From Sphingobacteriales bacterium (lineage in GTDB: Bacteria > Bacteroidota > Bacteroidia > Chitinophagales > CAIOSU01): DNA of 64,000 nt. Below, in pieces: positions 2,936 through 60,082 of the stretch. Both the position numbers and the translations under genes were made by a program. Location of the stretch: assembly GCA_027483645.1 (NCBI GenBank), contig JAIXUD010000009.1:1-64000 (forward strand), given 5' to 3'. Each line of letters starts with the position of its first letter. The first letter of the stretch is position 1. The notes under the pieces were generated by a model. The model saw nothing but the letters and a program-made list of their open reading frames with translations. It did not search any database and was not told where the DNA came from.

Positions 2936-4267
2936 ATGCAGGGTAACTATAGAGATGTGATAAAACTGGCTACACCCATACTGCTCGGCGGTGTGGCACA
3001 GAACTCTATTGCTTTTACCGATACTGCTTTCCTTTCACGATATGGTCAAGCAGAACTTACCGCAGTGGGCATTGTAAGTACTTGGTACTTGCTACTGTTT
3101 ATGGTGGGTTTTGCATTCACCAAAGGCACGCAAATATTTACTGCACGCCGATTGGGAGAGCGAAACCTACCTGCCATTGGCGAAATATTTAGCAACAGTT
3201 TTGTCATTTTATTGGCATTAGGGTTTGTAGTTTTTTTGGCACTGCGCTTTGGCTCTGGCTATGCTATGGACCTTTATTTTGAAGATAAGGCTGCAGCAGC
3301 AGCTGGCACCGCCTATCTCGAAATGCGCTCCTACGGTATCTTTTTCAGTTTTACGGGCTCCGTATTTTTGGCCTTTTATATGGGGCTAGGTACTATGAGC
3401 ATCCTAGTATGGGCTATGCTAATAATGAGTAGCGTGAACATTTTGCTCAACTGGCTTCTTATTTTTGGGCACTGGGGCTTTCCAGAGATGGGTATCAGTG
3501 GCTCGGCATTAGCTTCCAATCTTGCCGAAATAATGGTTGCAGCTATATTTACGGTGTACACGTTGGTTAAAAAATATCATATCCGGTATAACTTTTTCAG
3601 CAAAAGAGTGCTTTCGTGGGAGGTTACCCGGTCTATCACCTCCATATCTTTGCCTATTGTAGCGCTTACCTTGGTGGGGCTGCTTGGGTGGATATTCTTC
3701 ATGTATTTTGTCGAGAAAATGGGCTCGTTCGATACTCAGGTGTCTACGTTGGTTAAGTCCTTATACATGTTCTTAGGTATGCCGGCTTGGGCTTTTGCTG
3801 CGGCATCGGGCACAATTATCAGCAATTTAATGGGCCAAGGCCTGCACCACCGGGTACCACAAGCCATGAAAAATATAGCTGTGCTCAGTTTTGCCTGCAC
3901 CCTATTGGTTTCGCTGCCTTTGGTTATATTCCCAGAATTGATTGTGAAATATACCCTAAACCCCGAACTTCCGGCTCTGGTGCCGGCATGCACGCCTGTA
4001 TTATACGTTACCGTTGTAGCGCTCCTCATCTACTCAGTATCCACCGTGCTGTTCCATGGTATAGTAAGCACAGGCTCTGTTGGCATATCGCTACTTATCG
4101 AAATTGTTACCATACTCCTGTACGTTGGTTTTGTAGTGTGGTTGTTTTCACTTGAAAGCAAAACGGTAGCCATCATGTGGACCAGCGAGATATTCTACTG
4201 GTTGCTACTATTGTTTATTGCCTTCTTCTACATCCGGTCTGGTAGATGGAAAAACACTAAAATTTAA
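2936..4267 (+). CDS. MATE family multidrug/sodium antiporter
   Basis: This 443-residue integral membrane protein is predicted to have about twelve hydrophobic segments. MATE exporters move drugs or metabolites outward in exchange for Na+ or H+. The N-terminal stretch ATPILLGGVAQNSIAFTD and the pseudo-repeat halves (second half beginning near TRSITSISLPIVALTLVG) are typical. The length fits the family. The start follows the CAATAAC repeat, with no obvious Shine-Dalgarno sequence. The 3' end overlaps the convergent SGNH gene by 4 bp. The transported substrate is unknown. Confidence 0.9.
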   Translation: MQGNYRDVIKLATPILLGGVAQNSIAFTDTAFLSRYGQAELTAVGIVSTWYLLLFMVGFAFTKGTQIFTARRLGERNLPAIGEIFSNSFVILLALGFVVFLALRFGSGYAMDLYFEDKAAAAAGTAYLEMRSYGIFFSFTGSVFLAFYMGLGTMSILVWAMLIMSSVNILLNWLLIFGHWGFPEMGISGSALASNLAEIMVAAIFTVYTLVKKYHIRYNFFSKRVLSWEVTRSITSISLPIVALTLVGLLGWIFFMYFVEKMGSFDTQVSTLVKSLYMFLGMPAWAFAAASGTIISNLMGQGLHHRVPQAMKNIAVLSFACTLLVSLPLVIFPELIVKYTLNPELPALVPACTPVLYVTVVALLIYSVSTVLFHGIVSTGSVGISLLIEIVTILLYVGFVVWLFSLESKTVAIMWTSEIFYWLLLLFIAFFYIRSGRWKNTKI

Positions 4268-57404: not shown

Positions 57405-58562
57405 TCACTTCATTACCTTATAGGTAGTTTGGCCTGTGTTGGTTTGCACACGCAAAAAGTAAACGCCCTGCTCTAAATTAGCGGTGGAAAACTGTATGCG
57501 CGCTGGCAACTGAGATATGGAAGCCTCATATATCTTCGCCCCCAGCACATCATACAGTGCAATGCTTTTCACTCTGGCATCCGTTACTTCAACTGTAAAT
57601 AAATTACCCATTGGGTTTGGATATGCCTTTACCAGTTTGGTATTGTCCACTTGTTTTATAGCAGTGGTTGTAGTGTCAAATGGACCAGGATTAGGGTGGG
57701 TAAACTTCGAAAAAAAATCCCAAACTACAGTGCTGCCATCTATATCCTTATTAGTCACTACACCAGCAAAAGGGAACGGCGCACCAGGCCAGGTGTGGCC
57801 ACCGTTTACTATTTTTATCAGCTGCACTTCAGTACCACCATCGCAGCCAGTGGTGCGGTAGCTTATCGGGAAGGAACCATCGGTACTATTGGTATTAGGC
57901 AATGTATCTATCACTGGGGGTGTGTTTGGACAGCCGTTTTCCACTAACCAAAAATTTATGGTACTATCCACACTACCACCAATGCCGCCGCCATTGTAAG
58001 GCACTGTGGCATCATCGGTACCATGTATTTGCAATACCGGTACCGGTCTGGTCGCGTTGCAGTTAGCTATAGTACTTGGTGCGGCAAGGCCCGTAACTGA
58101 GGCTACTGCTGCAATTCTATCATCAAGCTGGCAAGCTAACAAGTAGCTCATATAGCCGCCGTTGCTCATGCCGCAGGCATATACGCGGGTAGGGTCAACC
58201 TTGTAACGGCGGTTCACGTCATCAATAATCGCTGAGGTAAATGAAACATCATCGGGAGTGGCAACCATACCAGAAAAAGCATTCCACGCATTGTTAATCC
58301 CTTCAGGATAAACCACGATAAAGCCCGCCGTATCGGCCACTGCATCCATATTAGCATAAAACTGCTGCTGGCCCGCATTACTCCCATAGCCATGGAAATT
58401 GAGCACCAGCGGCGTCGGTGTATTGGCATCGTGCCCAGGGGGTAGGTGCACTATATAACTACGGTTCCCACCGCCGTGGACTATGGCAATGGTAGTAGTT
58501 GTTTGCGCCCAAAGGCTAACGGCAAGTAATAAAGCTATAGCTGCTAGGTATATTTTTCTCAT
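57405..58562 (-). CDS. Secreted LpqC/PHB-depolymerase-type esterase with T9SS sorting domain
   Basis: The 385-residue protein has a signal peptide (LYLAAIALLLAVSLWAQ-like, after MRKI). The esterase core includes the oxyanion HGYGSNAG and GMSNGG with nucleophile Ser133, an Asp in IHGTDDATVPY and the His in NGGHTWPG. Relatives cleave feruloyl or polyhydroxyalkanoate esters. The C-terminus (KAYPNPMGNLFTVEVTD ... GVYFLRVQTNTGQTTYKVMK) is a T9SS sorting domain. It heads the minus-strand run; it may work with the metalloproteases on extracellular polymers, which is inference. Confidence 0.88.
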   Translation of the reverse strand: MRKIYLAAIALLLAVSLWAQTTTTIAIVHGGGNRSYIVHLPPGHDANTPTPLVLNFHGYGSNAGQQQFYANMDAVADTAGFIVVYPEGINNAWNAFSGMVATPDDVSFTSAIIDDVNRRYKVDPTRVYACGMSNGGYMSYLLACQLDDRIAAVASVTGLAAPSTIANCNATRPVPVLQIHGTDDATVPYNGGGIGGSVDSTINFWLVENGCPNTPPVIDTLPNTNSTDGSFPISYRTTGCDGGTEVQLIKIVNGGHTWPGAPFPFAGVVTNKDIDGSTVVWDFFSKFTHPNPGPFDTTTTAIKQVDNTKLVKAYPNPMGNLFTVEVTDARVKSIALYDVLGAKIYEASISQLPARIQFSTANLEQGVYFLRVQTNTGQTTYKVMK

Positions 58563-58664
58563 AAAGGTTGTAGTAAGGTGATACTAATATAGGTATAAAA
58601 TGAAGTTTTCGTAGAGTGATGCAAAAATCTGTCCAGCTTGTTTGGTTGATTGGTTATTGGCTTA

Positions 58665-58906
58665 CGGTCAGACGGCTACTATTGTGCGGGTAATAAACTT
58701 GAAGAATCAAGTGGCTTCTATTCGAAGAGCCGTCCGACCGATATTCACCGAGCGGTCTTTGATAAAGAACTACACTAATTATAAACATAAGGCAAACAAG
58801 ATGCCGGTATACGGAAATTCCCCACATTAGCGGTCGGACGCCCTTTCCGAATTATATGCTCCCTGTATGCAAATTAACAACTCGCGCCAGCATAGTCGTC
58901 TGACCG
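58665..58906. repeat. Head-to-head pair of homologous 76-bp modules with CGGTCrGACG ends (REPIN/MITE-like)
   Basis: Four near-identical 10-mers alternate in orientation: CGGTCAGACG (58665-58674), CGTCCGACCG (58731-58740), CGGTCGGACG (58831-58840) and CGTCTGACCG (58897-58906). Each pair bounds a module of exactly 76 bp, with 90 bp between modules. The reverse complement of module 1 aligns with module 2 over its last 37 bp at about 27 identities, and both begin with the same 10-mer. This is the layout of two diverged copies of a hairpin element in opposite orientation. Confidence 0.75.
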
Positions 58907-59024
58907 CATCAAACATCAGGCAAGTTATTAGGCATTATCAATTAACAATCGACAGTAACAGCAAGTATATTGGTTTGAAATACAAAAGTGTTAGTTCTAT
59001 TAATCATTAGTTTGATTAAAGCCA

Positions 59025-59101
59025 GCAACCAATAACCAAACAACCTATAACAAATAACCAATTTTGAAGCAGCCGTGGACCGTCGTCTATGGTCTGTCGA
59101 C
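59025..59101. repeat. ACCAATAACC and GGTCTGTCGAC spacer words before mscS
   Basis: Repeated AACCAATAACCAAACAACC-type words are followed by GTGGACCGTCGTCTATGGTC. This is the same family pairing as at 2822-2931, and it lies just upstream of the MscS promoter region. Confidence 0.65.
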
Positions 59102-59146
59102 TAAAAAAATGCTACCTTTATTAAACATCAATAACCATAGCTGCCC

Positions 59147-60082
59147 ATGTGGGAAAAAGTAAAAGTAACGGGAACCCAAGTACTCGACTTTTTAGATAGT
59201 ACCGCTTTCCACATTGGCGATTCGGAAATCAGCTTGCTTTCCATTATTATATTTTTTGGGGCATCGGCATTGATTATTTTTATTTCAAGGCGCTTAAAAC
59301 GCTTACTGGTAAGACGGCTCTTCCCGCGCTACCATATTGAGATTGGCCTATCAGAAGCTATTGGCACCATTATCCAATACTTAATCATCATCATCGGTTT
59401 TGTCATCGTTTTCGAGAGTGCCGGAATCGACCTTAGCTCTTTTAAACTGATTGCCGGCGCGCTGGGCGTGGGCATCGGATTTGGCTTGCAAAGCATCGTG
59501 AACAACTTCGTGAGCGGAATCATCATCCTCTTCGAGCGGCCCATTAAGGTGGGCGACCGTATTGAGGTAGGCGAGGTAAACGGCGATGTGGTAAAGATTT
59601 CGGCCCGTGCCACCACGGTGGTTACCAACGACAATATTTCCATTATTGTACCCAACAGCGAGTTTACCACCAACAGCGTAACCAACTGGAGCCATGCCAA
59701 CAAGGTAGTGCGGTTCAACTACAACGTGGGCGTAAGCTATAAGGAAGACCCCGAAAAAGTAAAGATTGCACTGATAGAGGTGGCCAATGCCAACCAAGGG
59801 GTATTGAAAAACCCCAAGCCCGATGTATTATTTGAATCGTTCGGCGACAGCTACTTGAGCATGACGCTACGCGTGTGGACGAAGGAATACATGGACCGCC
59901 CTGGTGTGCTTAAAAGCCAACTGTACTATGCCGTATTCAAAAAATTTAAAGAAGAAGGCATTGAAATACCTTACCCGCAACGGGAACTTCACTTGTTATC
60001 TAATAAAACTGACCCGTTTTTAATAGCGATGCAAGAGGCGAAGCATAAGACAGAGAACACAGGGAAAAAGACACAAGAGTAA
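59147..60082 (+). CDS. MscS family mechanosensitive channel
   Basis: The 311-residue channel releases osmolytes on hypo-osmotic shock. It has three membrane segments (about 28-47, 70-90 and 97-125). The pore-lining helix is recognisable in GALGVGIGFGLQSIVNNFVSG. The beta domain (PIKVGDRIEVGEVNGDVVKI, TVVTNDNISIIVPNSEF) and a C-terminal soluble domain follow. The length is normal for small MscS proteins. An 8-bp gap separates it from the next gene, suggesting joint transcription. Confidence 0.93.
   Translation: MWEKVKVTGTQVLDFLDSTAFHIGDSEISLLSIIIFFGASALIIFISRRLKRLLVRRLFPRYHIEIGLSEAIGTIIQYLIIIIGFVIVFESAGIDLSSFKLIAGALGVGIGFGLQSIVNNFVSGIIILFERPIKVGDRIEVGEVNGDVVKISARATTVVTNDNISIIVPNSEFTTNSVTNWSHANKVVRFNYNVGVSYKEDPEKVKIALIEVANANQGVLKNPKPDVLFESFGDSYLSMTLRVWTKEYMDRPGVLKSQLYYAVFKKFKEEGIEIPYPQRELHLLSNKTDPFLIAMQEAKHKTENTGKKTQE

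Follow-up and report, generated by a model that had tools for sequence, protein, structure and literature searches.

A probable REPIN-like mobile doublet with long-loop modules in a Sphingobacteriales genome, and a RAYT gene flanked by two modules of that family

What placed two modules of equal length head to head, each bounded by the same 10-mer, at positions 58665–58906 of contig JAIXUD010000009.1 from a Sphingobacteriales bacterium (assembly GCA_027483645.1)? The stretch of DNA analysed, referred to here as the window, comprises the first 64 000 nt of that contig. An earlier note made from its letters had read the locus as two inverted, diverged copies of a hairpin-ended element, either REPIN-like (REP doublet forming hairpins; REP, repetitive extragenic palindrome) or MITE-like (miniature inverted-repeat transposable element), and possibly as a new mobile hairpin family. 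Our analysis indicates that the feature is very probably a REPIN-like non-autonomous mobile element, made up of two inverted REP-like modules and a spacer that have spread as a unit.

The whole element is 242 bp long (58665–58906, without strand) and could be aligned with ten other full-length copies. It consists of a left REP-like module of 76 nt on the minus strand (58665–58740; 84.1 bits in the covariance model described below), a spacer of 90 bp (58741–58830) and a right module of 76 nt on the plus strand (58831–58906; 79.9 bits), with the heads (foot sides) of both modules facing inward. A pattern search of the whole window returned exactly four copies of CGGTCRGACG, at 58665 (+), 58731 (−), 58831 (+) and 58897 (−), bearing out both the alternating orientations and the 76-bp module lengths that had been described. 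Under a dinucleotide model covering both strands, 0.054 exact copies would be expected (Poisson P of four or more, approximately 3e-7); seven matches were found when up to one mismatch was allowed, a number equalled by 0 of 100 shuffles. The reverse complement of module 1 resembles module 2 from end to end in an ungapped alignment (44/76 identical), with 26 identities in the last 37 positions in place of the 27 previously counted. This likeness exceeds that of shuffled sequence: with the 10-mers left out, the interiors share 24 of 56 positions, equalled by 8 of 2000 dinucleotide shuffles, and the outer 27 interior positions share 16, equalled by 0 of 2000.

The genome to which the window belongs (G000; 4.27 Mb in 23 contigs) holds a dispersed family of such pairs. 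A 291-bp query returned 16 matches, one of them the query itself, with 40 of 102 candidates scored, and the full-length copies are 67–76 % identical to the window copy. A loose module pattern gave 21 matches per strand, against none for a reversed-pattern control. We then built a covariance model from 21 aligned modules and searched it at E ≤0.01 (150 of 1066 candidates scored), obtaining 42 matches, the best 28 of which all scored at least 44 bits, the next reaching 36.9 bits; 21 of these 28 strong modules had gone into model building and seven had not. With 21 pattern matches per strand and 28 such modules genome-wide, chance is untenable as the origin of the window modules, and the other copies with the same 10-mer ends that the earlier note had proposed to look for do exist.

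All 28 strong modules fall into 14 head-inward pairs, each with its left module on the minus strand and its right module on the plus strand, and no strong single module was left over among them. Given this strict pairing, it is the pair that constitutes the dispersed unit, two inverted REP units having spread as a doublet in the manner of a REPIN; the 76-bp stretches are the REP-like units, and the element that disperses is the pair together with its spacer. Thirteen of the 14 pairs are compact (238–257 bp), and the fourteenth spans 924 bp around a transposase gene. Module length is 74–78 nt across the family, the spacers measured in seven copies are 90–93 bp, and the eleven full-length copies, the window copy included, align over modules and spacer, the latter being partly conserved. 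Two copies (L045 and L048) were considered as half elements, a view that was rejected since both are pairs with one worn module. By a simple open reading frame (ORF) call, all 14 copies are intergenic, with the flanking genes in all three relative orientations; gene annotation of the flanks covers the window locus. We regard as spurious the opposing ORFs of 123–127 aa that cover L041 and L047, as well as one of 100 aa overlapping L045 in part. In two copies, L040 (253 bp; 3948–4042) and L044 (257 bp; 4100–4202), one of the inner arms contains an additional small hairpin (GGCCACGC..GCGTGGCC), which may be a different palindrome inserted within the arm.

The enlarged fourteenth pair (C21:178807–179730) points to the enzyme of the family. 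Its two modules bracket an ORF of 203 aa (178936–179544), the linked gene for a Y1 transposase, or RAYT (REP-associated tyrosine transposase), that had been predicted as a mark of mobility. The protein matches Pfam Y1_Tnp above the cut-off (25.8 bits) and NCBIfam REP_Tyr_transpos below the cut-off of 80 (53.4 bits, its sisters scoring 48.5–61.5), and it reads NHYH followed 81 residues on by YIHQNI. An AlphaFold model (predicted local distance difference test, pLDDT, 90.6) found as its best match in a fold search 4er8, the E. coli TnpA-REP bound to a REP hairpin (E 3.9e-7), followed by IS200/IS605 enzymes. The C21 protein therefore combines the Y1 fold, HuH motif and tyrosine of an HUH/Y1 enzyme, and it places a RAYT of cognate type directly beside members of the family, as is the case for REPINs. 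It is most likely the cognate enzyme.

Two sisters of the C21 RAYT are encoded in the same genome, C22 and C1 (60 and 64 % identical), and among the matches listed for G000 and for the congener G002 (two of five for the latter), sisters are 59–64 % identical to the C21 protein. A doublet with the ends TGGTCTGACG/TGTTCGGACG lies beside the C22 gene. The C1 gene is flanked on either side by short-loop hairpins with a similar stem, and a further one lies inside it; on an exact pattern, three copies of these short-loop hairpins are found, always at the C1 gene. Of the seven Y1_Tnp matches in G000, C21 has the 10-mer nearby and C22 a form with one mismatch, and no such 10-mer end was found within the 1.5-kb flanks of the other five. 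In the PDB, the C22 RAYT had no sequence match at E 0.01; a match there came solely from the fold search with the C21 model.

Having the RAYT between two modules raises another reading, namely that the C21 unit is an IS200/IS605-type insertion sequence and that the compact copies are its internal deletions; a related unit in G002, described below, is likewise present or absent as a whole. We consider this very improbable. No near-identical second RAYT appears among the matches listed in G000 and G002, the sisters diverging as given above, and therefore no multiplying RAYT unit is seen; in addition, the nearest solved fold is that of the REP-type enzyme, ahead of those from IS200/IS605.

The modules of the family follow a common foot and stem grammar. 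Read from head to tail, a module has the form NTAG – CGGTCGGACG – approximately 56 nt – CGTCTGACCGC. TAG, as NTAG, is present at 17 of 22 inner feet vs none of 25 outer feet, and exactly GTAG at two of the 22, these being both modules beside the C21 RAYT. GTAG or ATAG also occurs next to the outer arm, inside the loop, in 23 of 25 cases (control inner arms, 1/22). In the window copy, a guide-like TTAG forms the 5′ foot of the right module (58827–58830, +) and a degenerate ATAT that of the left (58741–58744, −), with GTAG by the outer arm of the left module (58676–58679, −) and ATAG by that of the right (58892–58895, +), both within the loop.

Across a set of 36 modules from five groups (two in G000, and one each in G005, G002 and G177), TAG is found at the 5′ foot of 28 and at no 3′ foot. 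In the stem, position 1 alternates between C-G and T-A, position 11 alternates between G-C and A-T, and position 6, in the middle of the stem, is non-Watson-Crick in all 36 (24 G:T, six G:A, five A:A and one A:C). A further listing, which shares several modules with the first and includes short G005 hairpins (29–31 and 43 nt on the pattern), likewise has a non-Watson-Crick position 6 in 41/41 rows; since copies within a family are not independent, only a few independent cases underlie the mismatch rule. The inner arms at L106 and L115 pair by Watson-Crick rules across the spacer, as an inverted doublet requires. At L262–L270 in G005, hairpins of the same stem, their loops either a few nt or approximately 19 nt long, stand alongside modules of 75–78 nt.

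The left module folds better than 200 of 200 shuffles on both strands, and the doublet with its spacer folds into one hairpin, as in a REPIN, with outer arm on outer arm and inner on inner, in the consensus of the eleven copies and in the window copy (z −4.1 and −2.6 vs shuffles); there is little covariation, and this hairpin would compete with the two module hairpins. No additional base pairs within the module loop emerged from the consensus of 21 modules.

Such folding would also suit a conserved cis-acting element, a protein site or a structured RNA in leaders or trailers, selected at 14 places and not mobile today. The 10-mer ends are near-invariant while the copies are 67–76 % identical, as under site selection, and every copy is intergenic. 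We nevertheless hold this to be very improbable, because one copy contains a RAYT gene, the neighbouring genes seem unrelated by eye in all three orientations, and the related G002 unit is a clean insertion. The more specific proposal of a structured RNA or riboswitch was rejected, as an Rfam search of 58500–59160 at E ≤5 returned a single chance match.

Of the 14 weaker matches to the covariance model in G000, ten (L247–L251, L253, L255–L257 and L259) make up another dispersed family of doublets, whose AGTG and AGCG ends are similar to those beside the C22 gene; on an exact pattern, nine have both modules and one has a single module. The remaining four (L246, L252, L254 and L258) are left without a family assignment. 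The second family is probably cognate to the C22 RAYT. More widely, GTCNGAC occurs in both 600-bp flanks at 23 of 53 related RAYT loci vs 13 of 1060 shuffled flank pairs, and in one flank at 11 of the 53. An automatic scan for hairpins common to both RAYT flanks listed none at 21 of the 53 loci. At L120:2635–3054 (G139), CGGTCAGACGGGACGTCAGACCG is repeated five times, evenly 102 bp apart, beside a RAYT.

A pattern search across 395 genomes of the phylum found matches in four, with 22 modules in G000 and one in each of three others. As the reversed control gave five matches in four genomes, we take the three single-module genomes as background; G002 and G005 were outside that listing, which is therefore no measure of spread among near relatives. 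In a lone module in G020, the central pair is Watson-Crick, and that genome, which is 57 % complete, yielded no relative of the query RAYT. The same single module is present at L274 (G001) and L278 (G002), by eye apparently at the same site, which suggests an older, vertically kept copy.

Comparison with congeners supports movement. The window copy sits between two divergent host genes, both outside the element and transcribed away from it: a PHB-depolymerase-type esterase with a Por secretion tail (57405–58562, −) and an MscS-type mechanosensitive channel (59147–60082, +). The Por secretion tail, like the best-scoring named RAYT relatives, points to a host within the Bacteroidota. This gene pair is present in G001, G002 and G003, and was not found in G004; the element is absent from the syntenic spacer in the first three, the intergenic spacer measuring 584 bp here vs approximately 160 bp, counted by eye, in G001. 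The RAYT-bearing C21 unit is also absent from its site in G002 and G003 (62 bp between matched flanks in both) and in G004 (97 bp); in G001, whose locus is spread over two contigs, the DNA continues into the same sequence downstream.

The clearest case is L106 in G002, where a related RAYT lies between two complete doublets and the whole unit (1.1 kb) interrupts DNA that is continuous in congeners. Five bases separate the matched flanks in G003 (93 %) and G001 (90 %), compared with 1117 in G002, and G004 (77 %) is likewise empty. The simplest reading of these alignments is that the unit inserted in G002; its precise loss in three lineages is a possible alternative. A query at L277 for a further empty site matched only another repeat: L277:502–635 (G002) is a short repeat that matches many places in G001, G003 and G004.

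Target duplications had been suggested as a sign of mobility, and at the one base-precise empty site, that of the related L106 element, none is visible. This bears on the MITE half of the earlier suggestion, in which a double-strand (DDE-type) transposase would act on the modules as terminal inverted repeats (TIRs), the RAYT being a passenger. The size of 238–257 bp, the inverted ends and the intergenic sites would fit, but besides the lack of a visible duplication at that site the modules are themselves palindromic and carry an NTAG foot, and all three G000 RAYTs of the clade adjoin hairpins of related design; no search was made for a DDE gene with these ends. We regard a MITE of this kind as extremely improbable, and of the two earlier alternatives the REPIN-type doublet is the better fit.

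Taken as a REPIN-like element, then, this small DNA element is probably mobile, and we infer a single-strand route and cutting site as follows. With the locus single-stranded at the replication fork, a hairpin would form from each module or from the doublet as a whole. A RAYT dimer would recognise the NTAG foot together with the mismatched middle stem pair, the RAYT tyrosine would cleave beside the foot, and the doublet would be copied or moved into another single-stranded site without target duplication. The C21 RAYT may act on and mobilise these doublets at present.

Several observations weigh against this interpretation. The C21 RAYT reads YIHQNI, whereas its sisters (C22, C1, two in G002 and one in G005) read YIHQNP, and it may therefore be impaired; with full-length copies 67–76 % identical to the window copy, nothing hints at a recent burst. 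The flanks at the window locus are approximately 70 % identical to those of the congeners, too little for the insertion ends to be placed to the base, and the intergenic spacer holds more extra DNA than the element itself. The grammar has its exceptions: the short G005 hairpins are mostly without TAG, hairpins with a Watson-Crick centre occur at L092 (seven of the first ten listed) and L096 (3/3) and singly at L113 and L118, and the stem at L107 is perfect. The feet of the second G000 family are TGAG and RAAG, with NTAG in one of 19 module rows. At 19 of the 53 related RAYT loci, GTCNGAC is in neither flank, and TAG accompanies 26 of 109 GTCNGAC sites (18 RAYT loci) vs 5 of 99 background sites, a few loci supplying most of them. 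Finally, the right module, taken alone as DNA, is equalled or surpassed in folding by 21 and 64 of 200 shuffles. Because the arms are invariant within the family, covariation hardly tests the fold: two-sided changes were seen in two of 36 consensus pairs and none of 11 module pairs.

Other repeats surround the window copy. Two inverted sequences that are 94 % complementary, GGTTGATTGGTTATTGG (58644–58660) and CCAATAACCAAACAACC (59029–59045), bracket the element, which may have landed in this older repeat. The stretch 59022–59107 is a portion of a different dispersed repeat (CCAATAACCAAACAACC ... GACCGTCGTCTATGGTCTGTCG), present in at least 25 other places in G000 and many times in G001–G004 (40 candidates scored per genome).

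Set against known systems, the window element shares with REPINs the inverted REP pair with spacer, the spread of the doublet, the doublet hairpin and the cognate RAYT, as far as REPINs are described in the available text of Bertels and Rainey (2011; PMC3116915), and differs in that each unit is 74–78 nt and the doublet 238–257 bp, with 14 pairs. A canonical REP is a palindrome of 20–40 nt with a short loop and a GTAG or GTGG foot; the modules here, at 74–78 nt, are too long for one, and their foot is NTAG in 17 of 22 cases and exactly GTAG in two of 22. The accessible part of PMC8266576 reports for the E. coli REP/BIME system (BIME, bacterial interspersed mosaic element) that a stem mismatch is conserved and needed for activity, that GTAG is needed and that recognition is strand-specific. 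A GTAG-like 5′ foot and a conserved stem mismatch are common to that system and ours, whereas loop length and stem sequence differ and most copies here lack a canonical GTAG.

TIRYTs and TIRtrons, going by the portion of Di Nocera et al. (2013; PMC3733652) at hand, resemble our units in having a RAYT-type gene between inverted repeats, some of them self-complementary, with dispersed dimer copies. They differ in that GGGGWSAS, which marks the common type of TIR, occurs in 0/14 of our copies with 30-bp flanks, where the foot is NTAG; some TIRs without GGGGWSAS are also known from the same text. CGTC-tagged REPs share the CGTC within the arms, but those described there have 8–9-bp stems starting with AT and 4–5-nt loops, reportedly without a dedicated transposase, and the present modules do not belong with them.

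The closest described RAYT group, set against ours by description and motifs, is TnpA-REP subclass 2.6 (Bertels group 5) of the Bacteroidetes, which the available sections of Quentin et al. (2018; PMC6006769) characterise by flanking 'atypical secondary structures', of which the genome holds copies and which are described there as weakly structured and without GT[AG]G. The Y motif YIH[QN]NP is found in the sisters, the C21 RAYT itself reading YIHQNI; the HuH-Y distance is 77–86 in five RAYTs of the window's genus (stated median, 82), with an SS motif after the core; and the unusual flanking structures likewise have copies elsewhere in the genome. Our structures differ in their NTAG foot and regular 10–13-bp stem, and HuH reads NHYH or NHFH in place of the stated consensus NH[LIV]H. 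The suggested new mobile hairpin family therefore holds as a new variety, but not as a wholly new kind, a Bacteroidetes RAYT subclass having been published already (PMC6006769, in the text available). The new variety combines long-looped REP modules arranged strictly as doublets with the presence of two dispersed families in a single genome and, in a congener, of a RAYT unit whose empty site is clean. Unusual among its features are the loop of approximately 56 nt, the NTAG 5′ foot and the middle stem pair, which is non-Watson-Crick in all 36 modules. No title or abstract describing these modules was found in a literature search, with subscription papers and supplements outside it.

According to PMC8049555, as far as its available text goes, RAYTs are single-copy genes that have been domesticated and are passed on vertically, and REPtrons are said, in the sections of PMC6006769 available, not to appear to transpose as a unit; for this clade, the G002 site argues against the latter statement. 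One might tentatively propose, as a possibility that we consider rather doubtful, that RAYTs of this clade still move whole RAYT-plus-doublet units and not REPINs only, being living transposases and not domesticated genes. On this view, the 1.1-kb unit of G002 would have gone in cleanly, leaving no target duplication, once G002 had parted from G001 and G003. Recognition would then depend on an NTAG-type foot and a permanent middle mismatch, with the loop (a few to approximately 60 nt) left free and the hairpin codes diverging by family.

For the biology of these bacteria, the finding means that one genome carries two dispersed doublet families, the first with a RAYT lodged in one of its pairs, the other having a second RAYT as its probable enzyme. 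Their stem grammar is readable and family-specific, and so offers matched sets of enzyme and hairpin with which to ask how a RAYT chooses its hairpin, and the congener genomes, with a clean empty site for a RAYT unit, allow the gain of such a unit to be studied.
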